Assembly: GCF_021390325.1 (NCBI RefSeq)
Contig: NZ_JAJUWU010000014.1
Span: forward strand, 124,001 to 188,000
Source: Jiella avicenniae
GTDB lineage: Bacteria; Pseudomonadota; Alphaproteobacteria; Rhizobiales; Rhizobiaceae
Reading direction: 5' to 3'
DNA length: 64,000 nucleotides
The notes beneath the pieces were generated by a model that saw nothing but the letters and a program-made list of their open reading frames with translations, had not been told where the DNA came from and ran no database searches. The position numbers and the translations under genes are program-made. Below are positions 1,962-21,120 of the stretch, in pieces (position 1 is the first letter of the stretch; each line of letters begins with the position of its first letter).

Positions 1962-3029
1962 TCACTCCACCTTTCCCCGCACCAGATCGTGGATGAAGCC
2001 GAGCTTGCCCTTCACCGTCTCGGAGACGACGAAGGGATAGAGATCCTGATGGCCCATCGAGCGGTTGAAGGAATTCAGGGCCGCCGACAGCGCCAGCCAG
2101 GCGTCGAGAATGTCGTCGATCGGCTCCTCGTCACGGTAGACGTTGAAGTCGATCGTCGTCGTCAAAAGTCCCGAGTCGCGCACCCGCGGATCGACGGAGA
2201 CGCCCCACCAGTGGCCGGTCTCGAGGCTGTCGACGATGTGGAGGTAATGCGCCCAGGTCTCGGCGAAATCTTCCCAGGCGTGAGCCCCGGCATAGGACGA
2301 GACGTATTCGTCCTGCCAGTTCGGCTTCGGGCCGTTCTCGTAATGGCGCTGCAGCGCCTCGCCGTAGTCCTCGCTGTCGTCGCCGAAGACGGCGCGGCAG
2401 GCCTCCAGCGCGCCCGGATTGCCGTCGCGCACCAGCCGGTCCCAGTACCAGTGGCCGACCTCGTGGCGGAAATGGCCGAGGAGGGTTCGGTAAGGCTCCC
2501 CCATCGAAGTGCGGCGCTTCTCGCGCTCGGCGTCGTCGGCCTCGGCAAGGGCGATGGTGATGAGGCCGTTGTCGTGGCCCGTCATCACATGCGGCTCGCC
2601 CGGGATCTCGGCGAGGAAATCGAAGCCGAGGCCCTCCTCCTCCTCGTCGCGTGTGGAGAGCGGCAGACGGAGCCGCAGCAGCGTGTAGAACATCCGCCGC
2701 TTGGCGATTTCCATCTTCTGCCAGCGGGCGAGGTTCTGCGGGTCGGATACGTCCGGCACCGTGACGTTGTGGCGGCAGGCCTGACAGAACTGGTCGGCGC
2801 TTTCACCCGTGACCAGCCAGTTGCAGACGCCATACTGATAGTTGGCGCAATATTTCCAGCTGGCCCCGTCGGAATGCGTGCCGGCCGAAACGAAGATGCC
2901 GTCCTCCGGCTCGAGGGCCAACATGCGATTGCTTCCAGGCTCGTAGCCGAGCGCGTGATTGCAACGCACGCATACGACGTTCTCGAAAAACACCACGTGC
3001 GAGCAGGCCGGGCAGGAAAAGAGCTTCAT
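1962..3029 (-). CDS. Zinc-ribbon putative metallopeptidase (COG4307/Peptidase_Mx type)
   Basis: 355-residue cytoplasmic protein. The N-terminus is a zinc ribbon (C6-x2-C9 and C20-x2-C23), with further Cys pairs CNW and CQAC near residues 80-110. A metal-protease motif HEVGH occupies residues 189-193, followed by a long Trp/Tyr-rich C-terminal domain. This matches the putative zinc-binding metallopeptidase family, whose substrates are unknown. I chose the ATG at 3029 because the zinc ribbon starts right after it; the frame continues upstream only through low-quality sequence. It is divergent from the DUF2126 transglutaminase at 3240, and this family is repeatedly found beside the transglutaminase/ATP-grasp/alpha-E genes, suggesting it acts on the same unknown peptide product. 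That link is inference. Confidence 0.82.
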   Translation of the reverse strand: MKLFSCPACSHVVFFENVVCVRCNHALGYEPGSNRMLALEPEDGIFVSAGTHSDGASWKYCANYQYGVCNWLVTGESADQFCQACRHNVTVPDVSDPQNLARWQKMEIAKRRMFYTLLRLRLPLSTRDEEEEGLGFDFLAEIPGEPHVMTGHDNGLITIALAEADDAEREKRRTSMGEPYRTLLGHFRHEVGHWYWDRLVRDGNPGALEACRAVFGDDSEDYGEALQRHYENGPKPNWQDEYVSSYAGAHAWEDFAETWAHYLHIVDSLETGHWWGVSVDPRVRDSGLLTTTIDFNVYRDEEPIDDILDAWLALSAALNSFNRSMGHQDLYPFVVSETVKGKLGFIHDLVRGKVE

Positions 3030-3077
3030 GGGGTGACCTCGGGCGCGCAACCTGCGCGGAAAACCATTGCGCGCATC

Positions 3078-3102
3078 AATGTTTACGAGGGGCCCCGGTT
3101 CC
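3078..3102 (-). promoter_or_regulatory. Possible EcfG-type stress promoter for the metallopeptidase gene
   Basis: On the minus strand GGAAC is followed after 16 bases by CATT, close to the alphaproteobacterial general-stress consensus GGAAC-N16-CGTT (one mismatch in the -10). It lies about 50 bp upstream of the start at 3029. Short motif, weak support. Confidence 0.25.
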
Positions 3103-3239
3103 CTCGCCGAAACTCTCCCCAAAGAAAATCACGCGCCGTTTCTTTCCGCCTTCCCAGATAGTGGATGGACGCGCCTTGCCGCACCGCATGAGGACGATAA
3201 GCTTAGGCGGGACATCAAACGGGACGAACGAAAGCGATC

Positions 3240-6200
3240 ATGTCGATTCTTGCCGCGCTCAACCACCTGACGCACTACAAATACGATCGTCCCGTCAATC
3301 TCGCCCCACAGGTCATCCGGCTTCGCCCCGCGCCGCATTCGCGCACCAAAGTGCCGTCCTATTCCCTCAAGGTGACGCCGGAAAACCACTTCATCAACTG
3401 GCAGCAGGACCCGTTCGGCAACTATCTCGCCCGCTTCGTCTTCCCGGAGAAGGCAACCGAGTTCAAGATCGAGGTCGATCTCCTCGCCGACATGACGGTC
3501 TACAACCCGTTCGACTTCTTCGTGGAAGAGGCTGCCGAGGCCTGGCCGTTCGAATACGATCCGATCCTGAAGAGCGATCTCGCCGCCTATCTGGTCCCGG
3601 AGCCGATCGGCCCGCTGCTGGAGCAGTTTCTGGAAAGGCTGGACCGTTCCGAGACCCACACGGTCAACTTCCTCGTCGGGCTGAACCAGACGATCGCGAA
3701 CCGCATCGAATATCTGGTGCGCATGGAGCCGGGCGTTCAGACGCCGGAGGAGACGCTCGAAAAGGGTTCCGGCTCCTGCCGCGACACCTCCTGGCTGCTC
3801 GTCAACGTCCTGCGTCGTCTCGGCTTCGCCGCCCGTTTCGTCTCCGGCTATCTGATCCAGCTCAAGCCCGACAAGGTCGCCCTCGACGGGCCGGCCGGCA
3901 CCAGCGTGGACTTCACCGACCTGCATGCCTGGGCCGAGGTCTACCTGCCCGGCGCCGGCTGGATCGGCCTCGATCCGACCTCGGGGCTCCTCACCGGCGA
4001 AAGCCACGTGCCGCTCGCCGCCACGCCGCATTACCGCTCGGCCGCGCCGATTTCCGGCGCCGTCGACTATGCCGAGGTGGAATTCGACTTCGCCATGTCG
4101 GTCACCCGCGTCGCCGAGCGCCCGCGCGTCTCCTATCCGTTTTCCGACGAAAGCTGGGAAGATCTCGACGAACTCGGCAAAAGGGTCGATGCCGAGCTGA
4201 AAGCCGCCGACGTCCGCCTCACCATGGGCGGCGAGCCGACTTTCGTCTCGATCGACGACTTCGAGGCGGCGGAATGGAACGCCGACGCGACCGGGCCGAC
4301 CAAGCGCGGCCTCGCCGACGATCTGATCCGCCGCCTGCGCGATCGCTTCGCGCCGGGCGGTTTCCTGCATTACGGCCAAGGCAAATGGTATCCGGGCGAA
4401 ACGCTGCCGCGCTGGACCTTCTCGCTCTACTGGCGGAAAGACGGCGCGCCGATCTGGCGGAATCCGCAGGCGATCGCCCGGGAAAAGACCGGGGCGAAGG
4501 TCGGGCCGGCCGAATCCGAACGCTTCACCCGGGCCGTGGCCGCGGCGATCGGCGTCGATGCCGACAACGTTTTGCCCGCCTTCGAGGACGCCGGCTACTG
4601 GCTGCTGCGCGAGTCGCAACTGCCGGAAAACGTCGAGCCGACGGATTCCAAGCTGGAAGACCGGGAGGAGCGCGCCCGTCTTGCCAAAGTGTTCGAGCGC
4701 GGCCTGCCCAATCCGACCGGCCACGTTCTGCCGGTCCAGGCGTGGCAGGCGCGGGCGCGGGGCGTGCGCTGGCTGTCCGAGCGCTGGTCGACGCGGCGCC
4801 GCCATCTCTTCCTCGTGCCCGGCGATTCCGCCATGGGCTACCGCCTGCCGCTGGCCGCCCTGCCGCATCTCGGGCCCTCCGATTTCCCCTTCATCCATCC
4901 CGACGATCCGACCCAGCCCTTCCCGCCGCTGCCGCCCCAGAGCCGCCAGCAATGGGGCCGGGTCGAGATGCAGCAGCATCTCGGCGGTTCGGGCGGCTCC
5001 TCGCAATCATCCGACGGCATGAGCCAGTCGATCGGCGCAGACGGGCGGATGCGCCAGGAGATGCAGCCGCTGCCGCCGCTCCCGCAAGGCGCCGCCGCGG
5101 GCGGCCTGATGCCGACCTACGGCTCCTTCGCACCGGCGTCGGGCGAGATCGTCGGCCACGTGCGCACCGCGCTGTCGATCGAGCCGCGCGACGGCAAGCT
5201 CTGCGTGTTCATGCCGCCGCTGGAATCGACGGAGGCCTATCTCGATCTTCTCGGCGCCATCGAGGAGATCGCCGAGCGCGAAGACCTGCCGGTGCAGATC
5301 GAGGGCTATGCGCCGCCGGCCGATCCGCGCCTCAACGTCATCCGCGTCGCGCCGGACCCAGGCGTCATCGAGGTCAACGTCCACCCTTCGGCGTCGTGGG
5401 AAGAGGCCAAGGCGATCACCATGGGCGTCTACGAGGACGCCCGCCAGTCGCGGCTCGGCACCGACAAATTCATGATCGACGGCAAGCATGCCGGCACGGG
5501 CGGCGGCAACCACGTCGTCGTCGGCGGCGCGACGCCGCTGGATTCGCCCTTCCTGCGCCGGCCGGACCTTCTGAAGTCCCTCGTCCTCTACTGGCAGCGC
5601 CACCCGTCCCTCTCCTACCTGTTCTCGGGCCTGTTCATCGGCCCGACCAGCCAGGCACCCCGCGTCGACGAGGGCCGGCACGACCAGCTCTACGAGCTCG
5701 AGATCGCCATGGCGCAGGTGACGCGGGACCAGTTCTCCACCCCGCCCTGGCTGACGGACCGGCTGTTCCGCAATCTCCTGATCGACGTCACCGGAAACAC
5801 CCACCGGGCCGAGATCTGCATCGACAAGCTGTATTCGCCGGACGGGCCGACGGGCCGGCTCGGCCTCGTCGAGTTCCGCGGCTTCGAGATGCCGCCGGAC
5901 GCCAGGATGAGCCTCGCCCAGCAGCTCCTGATCCGGGCGCTGATCATGAAGTTCTGGAACGAGCCGGAAGAGGGCAAGTTCGTCCGCTGGGGCACGCAGC
6001 TTCACGACCGCTTCATGCTGCCGGAATTCGTCTGGGCGGATTTTCAGGACGTGCTCGCCGATCTCGCCCGCTCTGGCTATCCGCTGAAGCCGGAATGGTT
6101 CGAGGCCCAGGCCGAGTTCCGTTTCCCCTTCTGCGGCAGGATCGAGCGCGAGGGGATCACGCTGGAGCTCCGCCAGGCGCTGGAGCCTTGGAACGTCATG

Positions 6201-6680
6201 GGCGAGACCGGCGCGATCGGCGGTACCGTGCGCTTCGTCGACTCCTCGGTCGAACGGCTGCAGGTCAAGCTCTCGGAGTTCATTCCCGGCCGCCACGTCG
6301 TCACCTGCAACGGCCGCGAGGTGCCGATGATGGCGACCGGCCGCGGCAAGGAAGCGGTCGCGGGCGTCCGCTTCAAGGCCTGGCAGCCGGCCTCGGGCCT
6401 TCACCCGACGATCCCGGTCCACGCGCCGCTCACCTTCGACATCTACGATCGCTGGTCGAAGCGCTCGCTCGGCGGCTGCGTGTACCACGTCGCCCATCCG
6501 GGCGGGCGCAACTACGACGTCTTCCCGGTCAACGCCTACGAGGCCGAGGCAAGACGGCTCGCGCGCTTCCAGGACATCGGCCACACACCGGGTGCCTTCG
6601 AGCCCGTCCGCGAGATCCCGGACCCGTCCTTCCCGGCAACGCTCGATCTGAGGAGACCGGCGGGGCTGGCGGTGACGTAG
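3240..6680 (+). CDS. Transglutaminase-like / DUF2126 protein
   Basis: 1146-residue protein in two blocks. Residues about 1-290 form the bacterial transglutaminase N-terminal beta domain plus a transglutaminase-like papain-fold core: the catalytic Cys is C180 in [10 protein letters not shown], the His H229 in DLHAWAEVY and the Asp D245 in GLDPTSG. Residues about 300-1130 are DUF2126, a large domain of unknown function typical of this architecture. No signal peptide is evident, so a cytoplasmic location is likely. Such proteins occur with the circularly permuted ATP-grasp and alpha-E proteins found downstream here, a grouping predicted to make and process an unidentified peptide or amide-linked product. 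It diverges from the metallopeptidase gene and converges on the opgD-like gene. Confidence 0.9.
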
Positions 6681-6688
6681 GGGGCCGG

Positions 6689-6706
6689 GAGCCGATCCGT
6701 CGGCTC
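6689..6706. terminator. Hairpin in convergent intergenic region
   Basis: Perfect 7-bp inverted repeat GAGCCGA/TCGGCTC with a four-base loop, 9 bp after the stop codon of the DUF2126 gene. No T-tract follows, so termination is plausible but not shown. Confidence 0.4.
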
Positions 6707-6715
6707 GCCGATTGC

Positions 6716-6748
6716 GGCAAGCTTCGAACGCTTCGGCCGAAGCTTGCC
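6716..6748. terminator. Long perfect hairpin between convergent genes
   Basis: Perfect 11-bp arms (GGCAAGCTTCG at 6716-6726, CGAAGCTTGCC at 6738-6748) with an 11-base loop, placed between the convergent DUF2126 and opgD-like genes and just short of the opgD stop. Position and symmetry suit a bidirectional terminator; no clear T-run follows. Confidence 0.5.
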
Positions 6749-6752
6749 GGAC

Positions 6753-8393
6753 TCATTTCTCCGGATCTGGCCAGACACGGAACTCGGCCTCTTCCGACAG
6801 GATCTTTTCACCATCCTTCAGGATGATCCGAACGTCGGCCGGTTCTCGATCCGTCGTGAAAAGGTCGAACGAGAGCCGCCAGGCATCCATCCTGCCGGGA
6901 AGACGTGAGACGCTCGGCTTGAAGATCCGGAAGGCATCCGACTCTATCGATACGAAGTCGGTCGAGGGTTCACGGACGGCGAGTTCGGCTCCCACGAAGT
7001 CGGCAAGGATGGTGCGTTCGTCGCGCTCGCCCTCAATGGCGCCGTAGTTCGGCCGGTTCCGGCCGTAGCGAAGACCGTCCAAGCGGGCGAGCGGCGTCGG
7101 ATTTTCGTTGCCCGACCAGAAGAGGCGGTAGCGCAGCGCCATCTCGTCTCCGGCGGAAACGGGCTCCTCCGGCACGAAGAAGGCGACGATATTGTCCCCG
7201 TATTCTGCGTTCGTCGGCAGCTCGACGAGCTGGATCTCGCCCTGGTCGAAGCCCTCCACGGGTTGAACGACGAGATTGGGCCGACGCTCGAAAGCGGCCG
7301 GATCCTGGTAGTTTTCGAAGTTCCGGTCGCGCTGAACGAGAGCGAAGGTCTTCAGGCCTTTCGCCGGGTAGCGGGTGACCGTCACCTCGCTCGGATTGGT
7401 CAGGGCTCGGAACAGCGGCGGCATGCCCTCGCGCGTCACCACCAGACCGTCCGAATCGTGAATTTCCGGCCGAAAGTCACCTCCGACCCAATTCTTCTGC
7501 TCCGAATGCCAGAACATCGAAGTCAGCGGGGCGACCCCGAAGCGCTGGACCCCCTTGCGCATGAAGAGACGTGCGGTGACGTCCATCTTCACGAACGGAA
7601 AATGCGTCACCTCGAAGCGAAACGCACCGGTGACGCTCGGCCCTTCGAGAAGCGCGTGGATGGTGATGACGCCGCCGCGCATCGGCTCGACGTAGAAGCG
7701 CGTGAAGTCCGGAAACTCTTCCGGCCCCCCATCCTGAGCGGCCGTGTCGATCGCGAGGCCCCGGGCCGAGATGCCATATTGCTTGAGGTCGCCGGAAGAG
7801 CGGAAATAGGAGGCGCCGAGAAAGGCCAACCAGTCTCCCGGCTGTCCCGTCCCGCCGTCGCTCGGCTCGTGGACACGGATGCCGGCGAAACCGGCGTCAT
7901 CCGGCATCTCCCGCGCCGGATTGTTTTCCGGAAACGAGAAATAGCCGCGACGGTAGAGCACCTCGCGAGCCTCGCCGTCCTCGACGGCGAACACCTTCAC
8001 CGGACGACGCATCAGCTCGCCGAGATGAAAGAACGACACCGCGCCGTCGCGGGAGCCTTCGGCGAAGAGCGCCTTGCGAGCCGGCTGCCAGATTTCTCCG
8101 TGCTGGTCGTAGCCGATTTTGTAAAGGACATCCGGCGCGGGATCCGGCGCCGGGACGTAGGGGGTCTCGAGTTTGTCTCTTGCGACCGCGGCCAGACGCT
8201 CGAACGAAAACTTCGAAGGCTCGCCGTATTCCAGTGCTTCGCCTCCCGGGAGCCGGCGAAACTCGGGACCATCCTCCTGCCGCGCTTCGGCCTCGCCTTT
8301 CGGCCATGCCGGGTCGGGCAGTCCCATCGCAAGGGGCACGAGCCCGAGGGTCAGAAGGCCGCGTCGGGAAAGAAGCATTGAAGGGATCCGCAT
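6753..8393 (-). CDS. Periplasmic glucan biosynthesis protein (OpgD/OpgG family)
   Basis: 546 residues, the usual length for MdoG/OpgG-OpgD proteins, which shape the osmoregulated periplasmic glucan backbone. The N-terminus has a twin-arginine-type signal (SRRGLLTLG near residues 9-17, followed by a hydrophobic stretch and a proline-rich cleavage region), which favours the Tat-exported OpgD branch over Sec-exported OpgG. The body contains the family's conserved beta-sandwich stretches, for example SPEERNG-like WHSEQKNW and GDNIVAFFVPE. No opgH-type synthase is in the window, so its partner lies elsewhere. It is convergent with the DUF2126 gene and divergent from the ATP-grasp gene, so it is genetically interleaved with, but not co-transcribed with, the transglutaminase set. 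Confidence 0.85.
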   Translation of the reverse strand: MRIPSMLLSRRGLLTLGLVPLAMGLPDPAWPKGEAEARQEDGPEFRRLPGGEALEYGEPSKFSFERLAAVARDKLETPYVPAPDPAPDVLYKIGYDQHGEIWQPARKALFAEGSRDGAVSFFHLGELMRRPVKVFAVEDGEAREVLYRRGYFSFPENNPAREMPDDAGFAGIRVHEPSDGGTGQPGDWLAFLGASYFRSSGDLKQYGISARGLAIDTAAQDGGPEEFPDFTRFYVEPMRGGVITIHALLEGPSVTGAFRFEVTHFPFVKMDVTARLFMRKGVQRFGVAPLTSMFWHSEQKNWVGGDFRPEIHDSDGLVVTREGMPPLFRALTNPSEVTVTRYPAKGLKTFALVQRDRNFENYQDPAAFERRPNLVVQPVEGFDQGEIQLVELPTNAEYGDNIVAFFVPEEPVSAGDEMALRYRLFWSGNENPTPLARLDGLRYGRNRPNYGAIEGERDERTILADFVGAELAVREPSTDFVSIESDAFRIFKPSVSRLPGRMDAWRLSFDLFTTDREPADVRIILKDGEKILSEEAEFRVWPDPEK

Positions 8394-8650
8394 TGTTCAT
8401 CGACAGGCGCTGCCATTCGCGTCGAACGACGCGGACCAGCCCTCGCCGCAAATCCCTTCGGCCACCACTTCGCGCAGGCGCCGAGCCTGCACAAGGCCAA
8501 TCGCTCAAATAACGGCTCGCTGCGACAATTTATCCGTTGCCCTGCGTGCCGGAGAAAATCTGGGCGGGAGCGCGCAACTGGGTCGAGATTTTTCAGCGCT
8601 TCGCCGAGGATGGTATAGGATGGCGAACGTTCATCCAACTGCTGGTATCC

Positions 8651-11056
8651 GTGCTCCCCGAACCCGATCTTCTCCGCCGCTATGCAGCGCTCGCCGCAAA
8701 TGGTCGGGACGAGATGATCGCGCCGGACGGCAGGATCCGCCCGCATTACGCGCCGCTGATGGCGAAGCTCGGCGCCATGCCGGAGGCGGAGCTTGCCCGG
8801 CGATTTGCCTCCTCGCGTCAATATCTCTCCGAGGCCGGCGTGTTCCACCGGGTCTATGGCGAAGGCAGCGAGCAGAGCCACGACTGGCCGCTCGGCCATC
8901 CGGCGCTCGTGATCGACCGGGCAGAATGGGCCGAACTCAGTGCCGGCCTCGTCCAGCGCGCCGGGTTTCTCGAAGCGCTGCTCGCCGATCTCTACGGCGA
9001 GCGCCGGGTCATCGCCGACGGCGTGTTGCCGGGCATTCTCCTCGGCCGCAATCCCGAGTTCCTGCGGCCCCTCGCCGATCAGGCGGGGATCGGCGCGCCG
9101 CTCCTCTCGTTCATCGCCGTCGATCTCGGCCGAGGTCCGGACGGGCGCTGGTGGGTGCTCGGGGACCGCACCCAGGCGCCGTCCGGAGCCGGCTTCGCGC
9201 TGGAAAACCGCGTCGCGACCTCCAAGGCCTTTCCGGACGTCTCCCGCGCCCTCAACGTCGAACGTCTCGCGGGCTTCTTCCGCAGGTTCCGGGAGATGCT
9301 GTTCGCCCTCGGCGGGCCCGAACGCGCCCGGATCGGCCTGCTGACGCCCGGCCCCCACAACGAGACCTATTACGAACACGCCTATCTCGCCCGCTATCTC
9401 GGACTGCTGCTTCTCGAAGGCGGCGATCTCGTCGTCCATGACGACCGGGCGGAGGTGCGGACCGTCGACGGATTCCAGCCGATCCGCGTCCTGTGGCGGC
9501 GGCTCGACGCCGATTTCTGCGATCCGCTCGAACTCTTCGGCGGCTCGCGCATCGGTACCCCCGGTCTTGCCCGGGCGGTGCGCTCGGGCGCACTCACCCT
9601 CGTCAACGCGCTCGGCTCCGGCATCCTCGAAACCCCGGCGCTGCTCGCCTTCCAGAAGCCCTTGGCTCGGGCCCTCGTCGGCGAGGACCTGACGCTGCCG
9701 ACCATCGCCACATGGTGGTGCGGGCAGGAAAAGATCCGTCGTTTCGTCGAGGAGAACGCCGCGCGGCTGCAGCTCGGCCCGGCCTTCCCCGGCGCGCCGC
9801 CCTTTCCGGTGATGGGCGAGACCGCGACCCGGCCGGATGCGGGCGGACGCAAGGTTCCCGCCTCGACGAGCGAGGGCGTCGCCCTCGTCGGTCAGGAGAT
9901 CGCCGCCCTGTCGACGACGCCGGTCTGGGGCAGGAAGGGGCTGGAGCCGCGGCCGGTAACGCTTCGCGCCTTCCTGATGCGGGACGAGGACGGCTGGCAC
10001 GTCATGCCGGGCGGTTTCGCGCGGGTGGCCGATTCCCGCGATGCCCGGGTGATTTCGATGCAGCGCGGCGGCGGCTCGATCGACGTCTGGATCGGCTCCG
10101 ACACCGCCGCCAAGCCGGTGACGCTGCTCGGCCAGAACGGCGATCGCTTCGCCCGGCGCCTGCCCGGCGCGCTCCCTGCGAGGGCGGCGGACAATCTGTT
10201 CTGGCTCGGCCGCTATGCCGAGCGCGGCGAGGTGGCGGCGCGGCTGCTGCGGCTCCATGCCGCCCGCGCCGGCGAGGGCTGGAGCGAGGGCGAACTCGAA
10301 GCGCGCATCGCCACGATCCTCGAAGACTACGGCGTCGAGATCGACGGCGGGCGTCCCGAGCGCGGCCTTCTCGCCCTCGCCAGGCAGGCGGCCGACACCG
10401 CCTCGCGCATCCGCGAGCGCTTTTCGCCCGACGCCTGGCGCACCCTGAAGGACGTCGTCGCGCTGATCCTCGAGGCCATTGCCGAGAAGGACGAGGACGT
10501 CGTCGGCCTGACCAGTTCCGTCCTCACCCATCTTTCCGGCTTCGCCGGTCTCGCCCACGAAAACATGTACCAGTTCACCGGCTGGCGATTCATGCAATGC
10601 GGCCGGGCGCTGGAACGCGGCCAGGCGACGGCGGCGACCGTCTCGGCGCTGCTCGCGGCAGAGCCGCCGGCCGGAGCGCTGGAGGCGATTTTGACCTTCA
10701 CCGATTCTTCCGTCACCTATCGCCGGCGCTATTCGGTCGATCTGTCGGAGGAGACGGTGGTCGATCTCGCCGTGCTCGATCCGCTCAATCCGCGCTCTCT
10801 GGCCTTTCAGGTCAACACTTTGGCGGAGGTCACCTCGGCGCTTCCCGGCGTCCATCTCGGCGAGACGCCGGACCTGTTGCTTCGCCGTCTCGCGCGGCTC
10901 AAGGTGCGGCTCCAGACGGCCGACGCCGGCGAGGTCGACACCGCCTTTCTCGATCGCATCGTCGGCGATCTCGCGCTGATCTCCGACCTCCTCACCCAAC
11001 GCTATCTCCTGTCCAGCCCGCGTGCGGCGGCCGAATGGAGCGGGGGGCCGGAATGA
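8651..11056 (+). CDS. Circularly permuted type 2 ATP-grasp / alpha-E domain fusion
   Basis: Fusion of two modules often encoded separately. The N-terminal half (to about residue 460) is the circularly permuted ATP-grasp region (DUF404/DUF407), predicted to form amide bonds using ATP; the C-terminal half (about 480-800) is the helical alpha-E domain (DUF403), beginning near NLFWLGRYAER. The frame can be extended to a TTG at 8537, but those 38 codons use codons rare in the window and homologous sequence seems to begin near YAALAANGRDEM, so I prefer the GTG at 8651 (801 residues); the true start is uncertain. Its stop overlaps the start of the downstream transglutaminase by 4 bp (ATGA), so the two are translationally coupled. 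The product made by this family is unknown. Confidence 0.85.
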   Translation: MLPEPDLLRRYAALAANGRDEMIAPDGRIRPHYAPLMAKLGAMPEAELARRFASSRQYLSEAGVFHRVYGEGSEQSHDWPLGHPALVIDRAEWAELSAGLVQRAGFLEALLADLYGERRVIADGVLPGILLGRNPEFLRPLADQAGIGAPLLSFIAVDLGRGPDGRWWVLGDRTQAPSGAGFALENRVATSKAFPDVSRALNVERLAGFFRRFREMLFALGGPERARIGLLTPGPHNETYYEHAYLARYLGLLLLEGGDLVVHDDRAEVRTVDGFQPIRVLWRRLDADFCDPLELFGGSRIGTPGLARAVRSGALTLVNALGSGILETPALLAFQKPLARALVGEDLTLPTIATWWCGQEKIRRFVEENAARLQLGPAFPGAPPFPVMGETATRPDAGGRKVPASTSEGVALVGQEIAALSTTPVWGRKGLEPRPVTLRAFLMRDEDGWHVMPGGFARVADSRDARVISMQRGGGSIDVWIGSDTAAKPVTLLGQNGDRFARRLPGALPARAADNLFWLGRYAERGEVAARLLRLHAARAGEGWSEGELEARIATILEDYGVEIDGGRPERGLLALARQAADTASRIRERFSPDAWRTLKDVVALILEAIAEKDEDVVGLTSSVLTHLSGFAGLAHENMYQFTGWRFMQCGRALERGQATAATVSALLAAEPPAGALEAILTFTDSSVTYRRRYSVDLSEETVVDLAVLDPLNPRSLAFQVNTLAEVTSALPGVHLGETPDLLLRRLARLKVRLQTADAGEVDTAFLDRIVGDLALISDLLTQRYLLSSPRAAAEWSGGPE

Positions 11057-11931
11057 AATACGCCATCCGGCTGAAGATCACCTACGACTATCCCTCCGCG
11101 GTCAGCGACGCCCGGCACCTTCTGCGCGTTCGCCCGCGGGAAGGTGCCGGCCAGACGCTGCGGAAGATAGCGGTCGCCATCACGCCGCGGCCGGGCGAAC
11201 ACGCGCGCGAGAGGGACTTCTTCGGCAACGCGGTCGACGCCATCGCCTTCTTCACGCCTCAGACCGAGCTGACGGTCCTCATGGAAGCGACGGTGACGGT
11301 CGAACGGGTGCCGCCGCCCCTCGCCGTCACGCCCGGTCTCGTCGATGTCGCGGAGGACGCGCTCGCGGCCCGCGACGCGGACGGCGCCTCGCCGCTCCAC
11401 CATCTCGGCCCCAGCCGGCGGATCGAAACGCTGCCGGCGCTGACAGCCTATGTGGAGCAAACCTTCCAAGCGGCGGCGCGGCCGGCCGGCGAGGCCGTGC
11501 TGGCGCTGACGAAGCGCATCCGCGAGGACTTCGCCTACCTCCCCGGCTCGACCAGTGTCGGCACGAGCGTCACCGAGGCCTTCACCGAACGCCGCGGCGT
11601 GTGCCAGGACTTCTCGCACGTGATGATCGCGGGGTTGCGGGCGAACGGCATTCCGGCCCGCTACGTCAGCGGCTTCCTGCGCACCGAACCGCCGGAGGGC
11701 CAGCCGCGGCTGGAGGGCGCCGACGCGATGCATGCCTGGGTCGAAGCCTGGCTCGGCAACGACATCGGCTGGGTCGGCTTCGATCCGACCAACGGCATCC
11801 TCGCCGGCGACGATCACATCGTCGTCGCCGTCGGCCGTGACTATTCGGATGCCCTGCCGATCGCCGGCGCCTTCGTCACCGCGGGACCGCAGGCGACGGA
11901 CCATTTCGTCGACGTCGTGCCGATCCCGTGA
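11053..11931 (+). CDS. Transglutaminase-like family protein
   Basis: 292 residues: N-terminal beta domain (about 1-120), then the transglutaminase-like core with catalytic Cys C184 in RGVCQDFSH, His H227 in DAMHAWVE and Asp D244 in GFDPTNG. No signal peptide. The ATG at 11053 overlaps the ATP-grasp/alpha-E stop codon, so both proteins are probably made together at fixed ratio. The family is predicted to act as a peptidase or amide-exchange enzyme on a product of the ATP-grasp partner. It differs from the 1146-residue paralogue at 3240 in lacking DUF2126. Confidence 0.9.
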   Translation: MKYAIRLKITYDYPSAVSDARHLLRVRPREGAGQTLRKIAVAITPRPGEHARERDFFGNAVDAIAFFTPQTELTVLMEATVTVERVPPPLAVTPGLVDVAEDALAARDADGASPLHHLGPSRRIETLPALTAYVEQTFQAAARPAGEAVLALTKRIREDFAYLPGSTSVGTSVTEAFTERRGVCQDFSHVMIAGLRANGIPARYVSGFLRTEPPEGQPRLEGADAMHAWVEAWLGNDIGWVGFDPTNGILAGDDHIVVAVGRDYSDALPIAGAFVTAGPQATDHFVDVVPIP

Positions 11932-12109: not shown

Positions 12110-13324
12110 ATGCACGTCGACGCCTATACTCTCATCCTCCTGACGAGCGGCGTCACCCTCATCTCCTGCGTCTGGCTGGCATGCGAATGGTGGCGCGGGC
12201 GCGAAGCATCGCTTCGCAGCTGGAGCATCGGTTTCGGCTGCATCACGGTCGGCTGCTCGATCTCCCTCCTGCGCCTGCGCGGCTTCGATTCCCTCGGGAT
12301 CTGGTTCAGCTATGTCTTTCTGATCCTCGGCCATGCGCTGTTTCTGCGAGGTTGCCTGAGCCTCACCCGTTCGAAGGCGGGCGCGAGCTGGCTGGTCGGC
12401 ATTCCCGTCTGGGCCGCCTGCTACGTCCTGCCCGATGATGGCGCCGCCCCCACTCTGGTTTTGGTGATCACGATCGTGGTGGGGCTTTACGCTGCCGTCT
12501 GCTCGACGATCCTGCTCCGCAGCGGCGCGACGAACCGCCACGCCCGGATGCTGGCAGGGGTCTTCGCCTTTCATGCCGCCGCCTATGTCGTGCGCGCCGC
12601 GCTCGTCGGCGTCGAGGGCGGCTTCGTCAGCCTGCAGAGTTTCAAGGGCTTCGCCATCGAGGCGGTGCTGTTCGAAGGGGCTCTCGTCGCCGTCGCCCTG
12701 GCCATTCTGATGGTTTCGGCCGTGCGCGAAGAGCGCGAGGCGGAACTGACCGCACGGGCGGACACGGACCCGCTGACGGGAACGCTCAACCGGCGGGCCT
12801 TCTTTGCCGGAGTGCCGATCCTCCTGTCGATCGAGCGGCGGCGGCCGTCCGGGGCGGGAACCGTTCTCATGCTCGATCTCGATGCCTTCAAGCAGCTCAA
12901 CGACGGCTTTGGCCACGGCTTCGGCGACGACGTCCTGCGGCTGATGTGCGAGGTCGTCGGCCGGCATCTGGAGCCGGGCGAACTCTTCGGCCGGCTCGGC
13001 GGCGAAGAATTCGCGATCTGTCTGCCGGCCACCCGCCTCGCGGAAGCGCGAGCTCGCGCCGACGCGATCCGATGCGATTTCGCCGCAGCGGCCACCGCAT
13101 TCGCCGACGGCCGCGGAGAACCGACGCTCAGTATCGGCGTCGCCGAAGTTTTCGGACCCGGCGATCTGAAGGACGCGCTCGACCGTGCGGATGCCGCTCT
13201 CTACGTCGCCAAGCGCGCCGGCCGCAATCGCGTCGAGATCACGTCGTCGCGGCCGGAGACCATTCCGGCCGTGTCCATTGCCCTCGCGCCGAATGCTCGC
13301 GGAGCCCTGGCCTCCGCCGCCTGA
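12110..13324 (+). CDS. Membrane-bound diguanylate cyclase (GGDEF protein)
   Basis: 404 residues. The first 205 or so contain about six hydrophobic segments with no recognisable sensor domain beyond a generic membrane module. A GGDEF domain follows (DPLTGTLNRR, LDLDAFKQLNDGFGH, active-site GGEEF at residues 297-301, then SIGVA and DAALYVAKRAGRN). All expected catalytic residues for making cyclic di-GMP are present. The inhibitory I-site RxxD that normally stands five residues before GGEEF reads EPGE here, so product feedback inhibition is probably absent. It is separated from the transglutaminase gene by about 180 bp and converges on glgB. Confidence 0.9.
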   Translation: MHVDAYTLILLTSGVTLISCVWLACEWWRGREASLRSWSIGFGCITVGCSISLLRLRGFDSLGIWFSYVFLILGHALFLRGCLSLTRSKAGASWLVGIPVWAACYVLPDDGAAPTLVLVITIVVGLYAAVCSTILLRSGATNRHARMLAGVFAFHAAAYVVRAALVGVEGGFVSLQSFKGFAIEAVLFEGALVAVALAILMVSAVREEREAELTARADTDPLTGTLNRRAFFAGVPILLSIERRRPSGAGTVLMLDLDAFKQLNDGFGHGFGDDVLRLMCEVVGRHLEPGELFGRLGGEEFAICLPATRLAEARARADAIRCDFAAAATAFADGRGEPTLSIGVAEVFGPGDLKDALDRADAALYVAKRAGRNRVEITSSRPETIPAVSIALAPNARGALASAA

Positions 13325-13382: not shown

Positions 13383-15601
13383 TCAGCCCTCGTGGACCAT
13401 CACGACGGTGGCGAGCGGCGGCAGGGTCAGCGAGATCGAATAGGGCCGACCGTGCACCGACTCGTCCTCGGCGGTCTTGCCGCCCATGTTGCCGACGTTC
13501 GAGCCGCCATAGATCTCGGCATCGGTGTTGAGCCGCTCGGTCCAGGTTCCGCTCTTCGAGACGCCGACGCGGTAGCCGTGGCGCGGAATCGGCGTGAAGT
13601 TCGAGACGATCAGGACCTGACGGCCCCCGCGATCCTTGCGCAGGAAGGCGATGACGCTCTCCTCGACATTGGCGGTGTCGACCCATTCGAAGCCCGCCGG
13701 ATCGCAGTCGAGCTGATGCAGTGCCGGGATCTCGCGATACATCGTGTTGAGATCGCGCACGAGACGCTGGACGCCGGCATGGTTCGGCTGATCGAGGAGA
13801 TGCCAGTCGAGGGACTGGTCGTGGTTCCACTCGGCCCACTGGCCGAACTCGCCGCCCATGAACAGGAGCTTCTTGCCCGGATGGCTCCACATGAAGCCGA
13901 AATAGGCTCTCAGATTGGCGAATTTCTGCCAGTCGTCGCCGGGCATCTTGCCGAGCAGCGAGCCCTTTCCGTAGACGACCTCGTCGTGGGAGAGCGGCAG
14001 GACGAAGTTTTCCGAATAGGCGTAGACCATCCCGAAGGTCATGTGGTGATGGTGGTAGCGCCGGTTGACCGGGTCTTCCTGCATGTAATGCAGGGTGTCG
14101 TGCATCCAGCCCATGTTCCACTTGAAGTGAAAACCGAGACCGCCGGCATAGGTCGGCTTGGAGACGTCCGGAAAGGCCGTGGATTCCTCGGCGTGGGTGG
14201 TCGCCCGCGGGAAGTATTCGCCGATCCGCTCGTTGGCGTCCTTCAGGAAGGCGATCGCCTCGAGATTCTCGCGCCCGCCATAGATGTTGGGCTCCCATTC
14301 GCCGTGATTGCGCGAATAGTCGAGATAGAGCATCGAGGCGACGGCATCGACGCGCAACCCGTCGATGTGGAACTGGTCGAGCCAGTACATGCCGTTGGCG
14401 ACGAGGAAGTTCCGCACCTGCGGACGACCATAGTCGTAGATCAGCGTGTTCCAGTCCTTGTGGAAGCCGCGGCGCGGGTCGGGATGCTCGTAGATCGCCG
14501 TGCCGTCGAACCGGACGAGACCGTGGACGTCGGTCGGGAAGTGTCCCGGCACCCAGTCGAGCAGGACGCCGATCCCCTCCTGATGCAGCGCGTCGACGAG
14601 ACGGGCGAAGGCTTCCGGCGAGCCCCAGCGCGACGAGGGCGCGTAAAGGCCGATCGGCTGGTAGCCCCAGGAGCCGTAGAACGGATGCTCGGAGACGGGC
14701 AGGAACTCGACATGGGTGAAGCCCATGTCCTTGACGTAGGCGACGAGTTCGCCCGCCAGATCGTCGTAGTCAAGAACCGCATTGTCGGGGCCCCGGCGCC
14801 ACGAGCCGAGATGCACCTCGTAGATCGAGATCGGCTTCTCGCGGTTCTGCCATTCGGCCGATTGCGAGCGGAATTCGTCGTCCTTCCATTCGTGCTCGAC
14901 CAGACCGTCGACGATCGAGGCCGTGGAAGGCGCCGTTTCCTGCAGGAAGCCCACCGGATCGGCCTTCAGGGGCTGGATGTTGCCGTCGGGGCCGATGACC
15001 TCGAACTTGTAGACCTCGCCGCGGCCGAGATGCGGGACGAACAGCTCCCAGACGCCGCATTCGTGGCGCTTGCGCATGACCGAGCGGCGGCCGTCCCACG
15101 AATTGAAATGGCCGACCACCGAGACGCGGCGGGCGTTGGGTGCCCAGACGGCGAAGGCGACACCGGGCGTTCCGTCCATCGTCGCCGGATGGGCGCCGAG
15201 CTTCTCATAGAGGCGATAGTGGCTGCCCTCGGCGATGAGATAGACGTCCTGATCGCCGAGGATCGGGCCGAAACGGTAGGGATCCTCTTCGTCCCAGCCG
15301 GCTCCGCCGCCGTGGCTGTAGCGGATGCGGTAAGGCGCCGTGCCGTCGAGGCCCGGGACATAGCCGGAAAAGAAGCTTTCCGGGCCGAAGGGTTCGAGCG
15401 TCGCGAGTTCCTTGCCGGCGCCGTCGATCACCGTCGCCGAATGGGCGCCCGGGCGATAGACCCGGACGATCGCGCCGCCTTCGACGCCGAACCGTCCGAG
15501 GACGGAAAACGGGTCGCCATGGACACCGCGACCGATTTCCCAGGCTTGGTGCTCTTCGGGACGATGCTCGATGCCGGCAGGGGATGTCGCAGGAGTGGAT
15601 G

Positions 15602-15605
<4 letters not shown>
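13383..15605 (-). CDS. glgB: 1,4-alpha-glucan branching enzyme
   Basis: 740 residues, full length for GlgB. It cuts alpha-1,4 chains and rejoins them as alpha-1,6 branches, making the branched glucan on which GlgE and other enzymes work. Order: N-terminal beta domain (about 20-115), CBM48 (about 130-220), GH13 barrel with nucleophile D420 (DGLRVDAV), acid E473 (HAEEST) and D541 (LSHDEVV), then a C-terminal beta domain; the 53- and 121-residue spacings match the E. coli enzyme. The ATG overlaps the treS stop codon by 4 bp, so it is the last gene of a glgE-treS-glgB operon. Confidence 0.96.
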
Positions 15606-18934
<3,329 letters not shown>

Positions 18935-18964
18935 TGAGGCGGGCGCTTTCGGCGTTCTCGGTTC

Positions 18965-21007
18965 TTATCGGGTGAGCTTGAAGACGGCGTAGGGCCGATC
19001 CTGGGGGTTCAGCCACCAATGCTGGACCTTGCCGGTCCAGGTCAGGGTGTCGCCGCCCAGAATGTCGGTCGCACGGATCGTCCCGTCGTCGGGCAGGCCG
19101 AACTCCCAGAGCGGCACCTCGAAATGGCCGCCCTGGTCATGGTGCGGATCGAGGTTCACCATGAAGAGGAGGTAGGACGAAAGGTCTTTCGTCCGTTTGC
19201 CGAAATAGAGAACCTGGTCGTTCCAGAAATTGAAGAAGGCGAGCGACCGGAAATCCCTCATTGCCGCTTCGTCGTTGCGCAGCCGGTTGAAGAAGGCGAT
19301 GTCGTCGCGGATGTTGCCTTCGGCATGCCAGTCGAAGGCGCGGATCTCGTATTTTTCCGAGTTGAGATATTCCTCCTTGCCCGGGACGGGCAGGAACTCG
19401 CAGAGTTCGAAGCCCGAATAGACGCCGTAATTGCCGGCAAGCCCGGCGGCGAGCGCCAGCCGCGTGCGAAATCCCGGCCGGCCGGAGGTCTGCAGATAGA
19501 GCGGGTTGATGTCCGGCGTGTTGACGAAGAAGTTCGGCCGCATGTAGTCGGCGCACTCCTCCGTCGTCAGCTCCGTCAGATATTCCGCCAGCTCCCATTT
19601 GGCATTCCGCCAGGTGAAGTAGGAATAGGACTGGTTGTAGCCGACCTTGCCGAGCCGCTTCATCACCTTCGGCCGGGTGAAGGCCTCGGCGAGGAAGATC
19701 GCGCCGGGATCGACCTTGCGCACTTCCGCGATCATCCACTCCCAGAACGGAAACGGCTTGGTGTGCGGATTGTCGACCCGGAAGATCCGGACCCCCTTGT
19801 TCAGCCAGAACAGGACGATGTCGCGCAGCTCGTACCAGATCGACGGCAGCGCCCCGCGGTAGAAGTGGACGTTGACGATGTCCTCGTATTTCTTCGGCGG
19901 GTTCTCGGCGAACTTGATCGTCCCGTCCGGCCGCCAGTCGAACCATTCCGGATGCTCCTTGATCCACGGATGGTCGGGCGAACACTGGATGGCGAAGTCG
20001 ATGGCGATCTCCAGCCCGTGCTTTCCGGCTTCCTCGATCAGCCGGGCGAAGTCGTCGAACGAACCCAGTTCGGGATGGAGCGCGTCGTGACCGCCGTCCT
20101 TCGAGCCGATCGCATAGGGGCTGCCGGGATCCTCCTGAGCCGGCGTCAGGGAATTGTTCTTGCCCTTCTTGTTGGTCGAACCGATCGGATGGATCGGCGG
20201 GAAATAGAGGACGTCGAAGCCCATTTTTTGAATGTCGGGCAGGCGCGCGATGACGTCGTCGAAGGTGCCGTGCCGGTTCACGTCGCCCGACTGCGAACGC
20301 GGAAAGATCTCGTACCAGGCCGAAAACGCCGCGCGCTCGCGGTCGACCCAGACGGGCACGTTGCCGGGATAGCGCGACAGGTTCGTCCGCACGCCGCCCG
20401 CATGCAGCAGGGAGACCGCTTCGTCCGACTGCATCAGCGCATACTGACCGTCCGCGTCGCCCTTTTCGGCCAGCTTTTCGAGCCTTTCGCCCAGCTTTGC
20501 GAGGCCGCGCTGGTCCGCCTTGGAGCCGCGGCCGGAACCGGCCGCTTTCGTGACCAGTTCGCGCGCCTCGATCAGCTCCAGATCGGTGAGCTTGCCGGCA
20601 TCGCGCTTCTTCTTCGCTTCGTCGCGCCACGTCGCGTAGAGATCGCGCCAGGCGATGATCGAATAGCGATAGGGCCCCGGCCGATCGAAGGTGACCGTGG
20701 CCGCCCAGCGGTCGTTCTCGACGAATTCGAAGCTCGTCTCGGACCATTTCGACGGATCGACGTCGGCCGGGCCGTAGATCAGCGCCGCGTCGATCTCGTC
20801 GTGGCCGTCGCAGAAGATGTCGGCCTCGACCGTCAGCGGCTCGCCGACGACGCGCTTGACGGCGAAGCGCCCGCCGTCGATCTCGGGCTCGACACCCTCG
20901 ATGGCGACGCGGTTCTCGGCAAGGGCGAGAAGCAGCGCCTCGCTTTCGGGACTCTTCGCCTTGACGGCTTTCTTCGACTTTTTCGGCTGCAGATCGGCGT
21001 CGGCCAT
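18965..21007 (-). CDS. glgE: Alpha-1,4-glucan:maltose-1-phosphate maltosyltransferase
   Basis: 680 residues. GlgE adds maltosyl units from maltose-1-phosphate to alpha-glucan chains. The N-terminal 100 or so residues include a Lys-rich leader, followed by helical and GH13 catalytic regions; nucleophile D412 (FRVDNPHTKPF) and acid E441 (FLAEAFTRP) are 29 residues apart as in the Streptomyces enzyme. I chose the ATG at 21007, which has GAAGAAGG about 8 bp upstream; an earlier in-frame ATG at 21079 has no such site. First gene of the glgE-treS-glgB operon. Confidence 0.95.
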   Translation of the reverse strand: MADADLQPKKSKKAVKAKSPESEALLLALAENRVAIEGVEPEIDGGRFAVKRVVGEPLTVEADIFCDGHDEIDAALIYGPADVDPSKWSETSFEFVENDRWAATVTFDRPGPYRYSIIAWRDLYATWRDEAKKKRDAGKLTDLELIEARELVTKAAGSGRGSKADQRGLAKLGERLEKLAEKGDADGQYALMQSDEAVSLLHAGGVRTNLSRYPGNVPVWVDRERAAFSAWYEIFPRSQSGDVNRHGTFDDVIARLPDIQKMGFDVLYFPPIHPIGSTNKKGKNNSLTPAQEDPGSPYAIGSKDGGHDALHPELGSFDDFARLIEEAGKHGLEIAIDFAIQCSPDHPWIKEHPEWFDWRPDGTIKFAENPPKKYEDIVNVHFYRGALPSIWYELRDIVLFWLNKGVRIFRVDNPHTKPFPFWEWMIAEVRKVDPGAIFLAEAFTRPKVMKRLGKVGYNQSYSYFTWRNAKWELAEYLTELTTEECADYMRPNFFVNTPDINPLYLQTSGRPGFRTRLALAAGLAGNYGVYSGFELCEFLPVPGKEEYLNSEKYEIRAFDWHAEGNIRDDIAFFNRLRNDEAAMRDFRSLAFFNFWNDQVLYFGKRTKDLSSYLLFMVNLDPHHDQGGHFEVPLWEFGLPDDGTIRATDILGGDTLTWTGKVQHWWLNPQDRPYAVFKLTR

Positions 21008-21120
21008 GCACGAACCTTCTTCGAAAGGTTTCGGGGTCGGATGAAGACCGCCATATGCGTCATGGCAGTCGCTGAGCACTTGGTTAAGGGATAGGCGGGC
21101 TGGGTCGCATGTCCAGTCGC

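Follow-up and report, generated by a model that had tools for sequence, protein, structure and literature searches.

Gene content of the locus

We analyzed a DUF2126-type set of ATP-grasp, alpha-E and transglutaminase genes in Jiella avicenniae. The set lies in a stretch of 64,000 nucleotides (the window), which covers positions 124,001 to 188,000 of contig NZ_JAJUWU010000014.1 (labelled G000:C1) in a genome of 5.17 Mb and 52 contigs. All of the genes named in the original prediction, which had been made from the sequence alone, were recovered by profile searches and open reading frame (ORF) calls. These are a metallopeptidase, a DUF2126 protein, an OpgD-like protein, a fusion of ATP-grasp and alpha-E, and a second transglutaminase. 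Coordinates below are those of the window.

The DUF2126 gene (3240–6680, forward strand) encodes a protein with Bact_transglu_N, Transglut_core and DUF2126 domains. Its transglutaminase triad, C180-H229-D245, is invariant in 12 sequences. The C-terminus resembles glutamine synthetase in fold and is described by Pfam as a putative amidoligase. Among the matches listed, which may omit the host genome's own or very near records, the closest named protein belongs to Aurantimonas marianensis (78%), ahead of those of Methylopila sp. and Mangrovicella endophytica (76% each), which makes an aurantimonad host probable.

The fusion gene (ORF 8537–11056, forward strand) encodes CP_ATPgrasp_2 (PF14403, 398 bits) and Alpha-E (PF04168, 178 bits) in one protein, of which residues 57–521 match PDB entry 3N6X (phmmer E 1.2e-62). 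The fused form is the usual architecture, with a length of 700–1000 amino acids in 79 of 83 clustered proteins. The TTG at 8537 that opens the ORF is doubtful as a start, and several congener proteins start opposite codon 39 according to script-called starts. The true start is probably a GTG at about 8651, judging from this alignment. In one genome (G150, 84% complete) the fusion gene is broken up into three matches (C1:3011308–3013742), possibly by a sequencing error.

The second transglutaminase gene (11053–11931, forward strand) overlaps the fusion gene by 4 bp (11053–11056), as had been noted from the sequence. Its product contains Bact_transglu_N and Transglut_core domains (PF01841, 87 bits; PF08379, 71.5 bits), and the triad C184-H227-D244 is kept in at least 97% of 76 aligned rows. 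Since the C-terminus of the DUF2126 protein is glutamine-synthetase-like, the set is predicted to hold two likely amide ligases.

A conserved core of three genes

The gene neighbourhood was compared in three sets of loci. The first was centred on the fusion gene, with a single locus taken from each genome of the order, family or genus; 75 of these loci also hold DUF2126, and the fusion is present by construction. The second was fetched by DUF2126 alone in named species and comprises the best 80 of 591 matches, with Sinorhizobium fredii and a Methylobacterium among them. The third consists of 40 loci from outside the order, fetched by DUF2126 from a draw of the phylum.

The distance from DUF2126 to the fusion gene is at most 600 bp in 68 of the 75 fusion-fetched loci, in 72 of the 80 named loci and in 31 of the 40 loci outside the order; in 38 of these last 40 it is at most 10 kb. 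The eight named loci that deviate are L133, L135, L144, L169, L178, L197, L208 and L212, some of which are contig ends. A match to the second transglutaminase within 10 kb of DUF2126 is similarly frequent (73/75, 69/80 and 35/40 loci, respectively). Because the grouping is found again when DUF2126 is the only query, it is not due to chance. We conclude that DUF2126, the fusion and the second transglutaminase form a conserved unit. DUF2126 itself is carried by 63 of the 150 genomes sampled from the order, and by 102 of the 349 sampled from the phylum, a draw that includes members of the order.

Seven loci of the order have a wider gap between DUF2126 and the fusion (L033, L034, L038, L040, L041, L042 and L054); they come from congeners of the window and from two closely related genera. 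The two genes are further apart in three congeners, by about 64 kb on the same contig in G154 (C2) and on other contigs in G156 (C38) and G158 (C21).

The metallopeptidase is a linked, optional partner

Upstream of the core, and divergent from DUF2126, is a gene for a Peptidase_Mx zinc metallopeptidase with an N-terminal zinc ribbon (1962–3029, reverse strand, ATG at 3029; PF15887, 349 bits; PF10005, 104 bits). The residues H189, E190, G192 and H193 are conserved in 11 aligned sequences, as in an HExxH peptidase.

Co-occurrence was counted in 137 genomes of the order with known family, and counts are given below as both, partner only, DUF2126 only and neither. For the metallopeptidase they are 31/10/32/64 (odds ratio 6.2), with a z-score of 3.5 when adjusted for genome size and of 3.27 within families. 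In 11 of the 31 genomes with both genes, the window included, the two are within 10 kb of each other, compared to 0.18 expected; these 11 genomes represent six families. The metallopeptidase is located beside DUF2126 in 17 of the 75 fusion-fetched loci, 11 of the 80 named loci and 5 of the 40 loci outside the order. Of the 137 genomes, 10 have the metallopeptidase but no DUF2126, and it is thus not strictly tied to the set. These data support the metallopeptidase as a linked but optional partner.

Additional ATP-grasp genes were also observed. In 24 of the 40 loci outside the order, the fusion protein has a second match no more than 10 kb from DUF2126, and in three loci from one family of the order (L115, L116 and L120) a second ATP-grasp match is found just upstream of DUF2126. 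The host genome has a second ATP-grasp locus of its own (L130:8917–12349, on G000:C5), in which unfused ATP-grasp and alpha-E genes are followed by a gene for a proteasome-like, Anbu-like protein (PF00227). No transglutaminase gene was called between the members of this locus.

Comparison with known systems

Amidoligase systems of ATP-grasp, alpha-E and transglutaminase are reportedly described already in Iyer et al. 2009. The genes Rv2566–Rv2569c of Mycobacterium tuberculosis presumably have the same four-gene content, metallopeptidase included. The systems of Iyer et al. reportedly share their domains and operon logic with the window set. The window set differs in that ATP-grasp and alpha-E are fused, which is usual in the order, that the metallopeptidase gene is divergent and that opgD is placed between the first two core genes. 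PMC5666114 and PMC6376114 cite the description by Iyer et al.

Three further systems were compared. The Anbu operon (PMC5666114, PMC6376114, PMC7801951) has the same ATP-grasp, alpha-E and transglutaminase families and is induced by nitrogen limitation in Pseudomonas putida. It includes the proteasome-like Anbu, whereas the host's Anbu-type copy is in the separate locus L130 and all genes called between treZ and glgE in the window belong to other families. Membership of the window set in an Anbu operon is thus ruled out, as the set has no proteasome-like gene. The Rlo operon of Pseudomonas aeruginosa (PMC12239564), which has an osmotic phenotype, similarly combines an ATP-grasp protein, a transglutaminase fold and a peptidase. 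However, these are a RimK-like ATP-grasp, an inactive membrane transglutaminase and a retropepsin, not the families in the window. Membership in the Rlo system was rejected because the ATP-grasp of the window is circularly permuted and its transglutaminase triads are intact.

The third system is the cluster I35_5080–I35_5083 of Burkholderia cenocepacia, whose genes are annotated in PMC5491218 as DUF404/407, DUF403, transglutaminase-like and a "large protein containing transglutaminase-like domain". We take the last to be a DUF2126 protein. One cluster holds ATP-grasp, alpha-E, a transglutaminase-like and a large transglutaminase-like protein, as in the window. Unlike in the window, ATP-grasp and alpha-E are separate genes and the cluster is under sigma54 control. 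A clone with ATP-grasp, alpha-E, transglutaminase and protease genes has furthermore been linked to antinematode activity (PMC7764037).

A literature search for DUF2126 by name returned no paper. The DUF2126-type set in the window is a member of a known, unsolved system.

Regulation

Control by nitrogen has been described for similar sets in other proteobacteria. I35_5080–I35_5083 are under NtrC and sigma54 in nitrogen limitation according to RNA-Seq (PMC5491218). In P. putida, PP_2685–2688, the first gene of which resembles a proteasome subunit, are under NtrB/NtrC (PMC7801951), and PP2685–2687 are raised in nitrogen-limited cells (PMC3325844).

Sigma54-like sites upstream of DUF2126 were scored against a sigma54 consensus. 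They were found in 12 of the 40 loci outside the order (1.18 expected), including four in the strict form (0.14 expected). They were found in 6 of 85 loci of the order (2.36 expected) and in 2 of 78 named loci (2.28 expected), with no strict site in either set. The window has no match to this consensus in the 300–350 bp upstream of DUF2126 or of the fusion, although control may act through another promoter. It has a putative sigma70-type promoter of DUF2126, CTTGCC-17 nt-TAAGCT (3175–3203, forward strand), whose hexamers are shared by most near relatives: in an alignment of 10 upstream regions, visual inspection recognized them in 7 rows. Since the window lacks a sigma54 site and shares the sigma70-like hexamers with its relatives, nitrogen control in the host is an extrapolation.

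Alternatively, the set may serve to scavenge nitrogen by proteolysis or deamidation. The transglutaminase folds would then be cysteine proteases or deamidases, the metallopeptidase would degrade peptides and the ligases would mark substrates for turnover. Transglutaminase-fold domains are often hydrolases, which agrees with this explanation, as do the proteasome-like subunit in the host's related Anbu-type locus and the control of such clusters by nitrogen limitation in other bacteria (PMC5491218, PMC7801951). Nevertheless, two synthetic ligase folds with many invariant residues have been retained, the window set has no Anbu, and the metallopeptidase is beside DUF2126 in a minority of the loci. 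We therefore consider nitrogen scavenging possible but rather unlikely, and we lean towards the set forming amide bonds.

The opgD gene looks like an insertion

The OpgD-like periplasmic glucan protein (MdoG; PF04349, 481 bits) is encoded on the reverse strand between DUF2126 and the fusion (6753–8393). Its closest solved relatives are OpgD (PDB 8x18, E 6.7e-86), and its N-terminus is Tat-like as judged by eye. As opgD is oriented towards DUF2126 and away from the fusion, it interrupts the unit. The core genes are co-directional in the window yet separated by this opposite-strand gene; they are adjacent in most relatives. Where DUF2126 and opgD converge, an inverted repeat (6710–6754; arms 6710–6726 and 6738–6754, 88% complementary) is a possible terminator.

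Among ten genomes of the genus, only the window has opgD in this slot, and none of the other fetched loci do. In all nine congeners, the stretches fetched around the fusion contained no match to the OpgD of the window; the matches in these genomes are located elsewhere and are only 35–42% identical. The genome of the window has three MdoG genes, of which the one at this locus has the lowest family score. Its third-position G+C content of 0.775 is the lowest among nine genes compared. Other genes occupy the same slot in relatives: four congeners and one other genus have an ion-channel gene there (15136–15930 in L033, whose copy is Ion_trans by Pfam), which in one of them, L035, is followed by a FecCD-type transporter gene (15166–18931 for both genes). 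In other relatives, the two core genes are separated by short gaps or by different small genes. The slot is a variable insertion spot, and opgD looks like an insertion seen in one genome and not like a part of the system.

An OPG (osmoregulated periplasmic glucan) operon of the opgGH/opgD type was also considered. The OpgD protein is present, but OpgH or another OPG gene is not directly beside it; the direct neighbours are DUF2126 and the fusion. A match to MdoG was found within 10 kb of DUF2126 in two further loci of the 75 (L065 and L082). In the order draw, two such cases were seen, one of which is the window, compared to 0.65 expected (P 0.138). Without the window, one was seen and 0.63 expected (P 0.47).

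The glycogen and trehalose genes are clade-specific neighbours

The flanks of the set are as originally described, with treZ on one side and glgB, treS and glgE on the other, according to family cut-offs and domains. The treZ gene (TIGR02402, 671.2 bits versus a cut-off of 538.8) ends a treY-malQ-treZ run that is cut by the start of the window (L132:5083–11482, upstream of and into position 1). Downstream of the second transglutaminase is a gene for a GGDEF protein (12110–13324, forward strand; PF00990, 116 bits), followed by glgB, treS-maltokinase and glgE (13383–21079, reverse strand; NCBIfam and Pfam). TreS and GlgB score above the NCBIfam cut-offs, and GlgE contains GlgE_dom_N_S and GLGE_C. 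TreS-maltokinase, GlgE and GlgB of the GlgE pathway are thus encoded together at the locus, and the two runs frame the ligase set within an alpha-glucan/trehalose island. In most members of the window's genus and clade, a GGDEF relative occupies the interval from the second transglutaminase to glgB.

The glgB-treS-glgE genes are located beyond the second transglutaminase in 8 of the 10 genus genomes, the window included. Of the other two, G154 has glgB and treS where its fetched stretch ends, and the stretch of G156 contains none of the three genes. G184 and G180 also show this synteny. The Mangrovicella locus (L135) contains the metallopeptidase, DUF2126, GGDEF and glgB-treS-glgE with no match to the fusion in 23 kb, so that the synteny does not require the whole core. 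A different pair, glgP-glgB, is directly downstream in 12 of the 80 named loci (Rhizobium, Sinorhizobium, Martelella, Ciceribacter, Metarhizobium and two further Rhizobiales) and in five members of the window's family; in L084, from one other family, it is divergently upstream. Single TreS-like matches near DUF2126 were seen in L120 and L175.

Of the 14 order genomes that hold both GlgE and DUF2126, that of the window alone has the two within 20 kb of each other. In the 40 loci outside the order, covered by stretches of 13.8–20 kb with flanks to about 8 kb as a rule, GlgB, GlgP, GlgE, TreS and MdoG had no match within 10 kb of DUF2126. GlgP was found near DUF2126 in two order-draw genomes (G023 and G118; 0.25 expected, P 0.026), which is a weak hint given that several families were tested. 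The glg/tre flanks are specific to particular clades, and neither opgD nor the glg genes keep a conserved position in the order as a whole. The proposal that a conserved linkage to opgD and glgE ties the set to glucans thus largely fails in the neighbourhood survey. What stands is synteny at the level of clades: treZ and glgB-treS-glgE in that of the window, and glgP-glgB in Rhizobium-type genomes and one other family. A literature search on combinations of opgD, glgE and Hyphomicrobiales returned no paper.

Co-occurrence gave a more mixed picture. The counts are 53/23/10/51 for MdoG (odds ratio 11.8; size-adjusted z 5.2; within-family z 1.79), 46/26/17/48 for GlgP (odds ratio 5.0; size-adjusted z 3.1; within-family z 2.12) and 14/13/49/61 for GlgE (odds ratio 1.3, p 0.52; size-adjusted z -0.5; within-family z -0.28). 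The MdoG co-occurrence is the strongest remaining argument for a set that decorates or couples to glucans, be it periplasmic OPG, glycogen or trehalose, and the clade-level synteny and the GlgP hint point in the same direction. However, the drop in z within families suggests that the MdoG signal is largely one between families and is not proven to be functional, and part of it is general since GlgP co-occurs too. Furthermore, the GlgE pathway shows no co-occurrence, the linkage of MdoG is at chance level when the window is left out, opgD occupies the slot in the window only and the five markers have no match near DUF2126 in the 40 loci outside the order. With its Tat-like N-terminus, OpgD would also act in another compartment. 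We thus find a functional link of the set to glucans very unlikely.

Alternatively, the locus may be a nutrient-stress island in which the ligase set and the carbon-storage genes are both used at low nitrogen and excess carbon, with no biochemical coupling. The clade-restricted synteny with treY-malQ-treZ and glgB-treS-glgE is consistent with such an island, as is the nitrogen control of similar sets elsewhere. On the other hand, DUF2126 has a putative sigma70-like promoter in the window clade, its linkage to the fusion is broken in three congeners and the glg neighbours are missing in one of ten. This explanation appears unlikely.

Proposed function and its implications

The amide-bond reading in the original prediction is supported by the two ligase folds, the intact transglutaminase triads and the HExxH peptidase. 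On balance, we slightly favor the interpretation that the core, together with the optional metallopeptidase, is a cytoplasmic amide-bond system, and that its association with opgD and the glg/tre genes is positional. The glutamine-synthetase-like ligase and the circularly permuted ATP-grasp ligase would activate carboxylates at the expense of ATP and join them to amines. The product may be either a peptide-like small metabolite or a protein tag attached as an amide; the two transglutaminases would move or remove the amide, and the zinc peptidase would trim. Nitrogen limitation switches on such a set in some proteobacteria, and conceivably in the host.

A broader version would be a nitrogen-limitation programme. 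Its two unrelated ligases, together with the two transglutaminases and the zinc peptidase, would form an amide-linked nitrogen store or protein tag and recycle it, and in some Hyphomicrobiales genomic clustering would couple the programme to glycogen and trehalose storage. This is a speculative scenario, to which we assign a low probability.

In summary, the tempting glucan lead has been weakened, whereas the zinc metallopeptidase is supported as a linked partner and DUF2126, by its fold, as a second ligase. The DUF2126 set is widespread in the order and the phylum and we know of no product for it, which is why it matters; nitrogen limitation is a condition in which the product may be sought.
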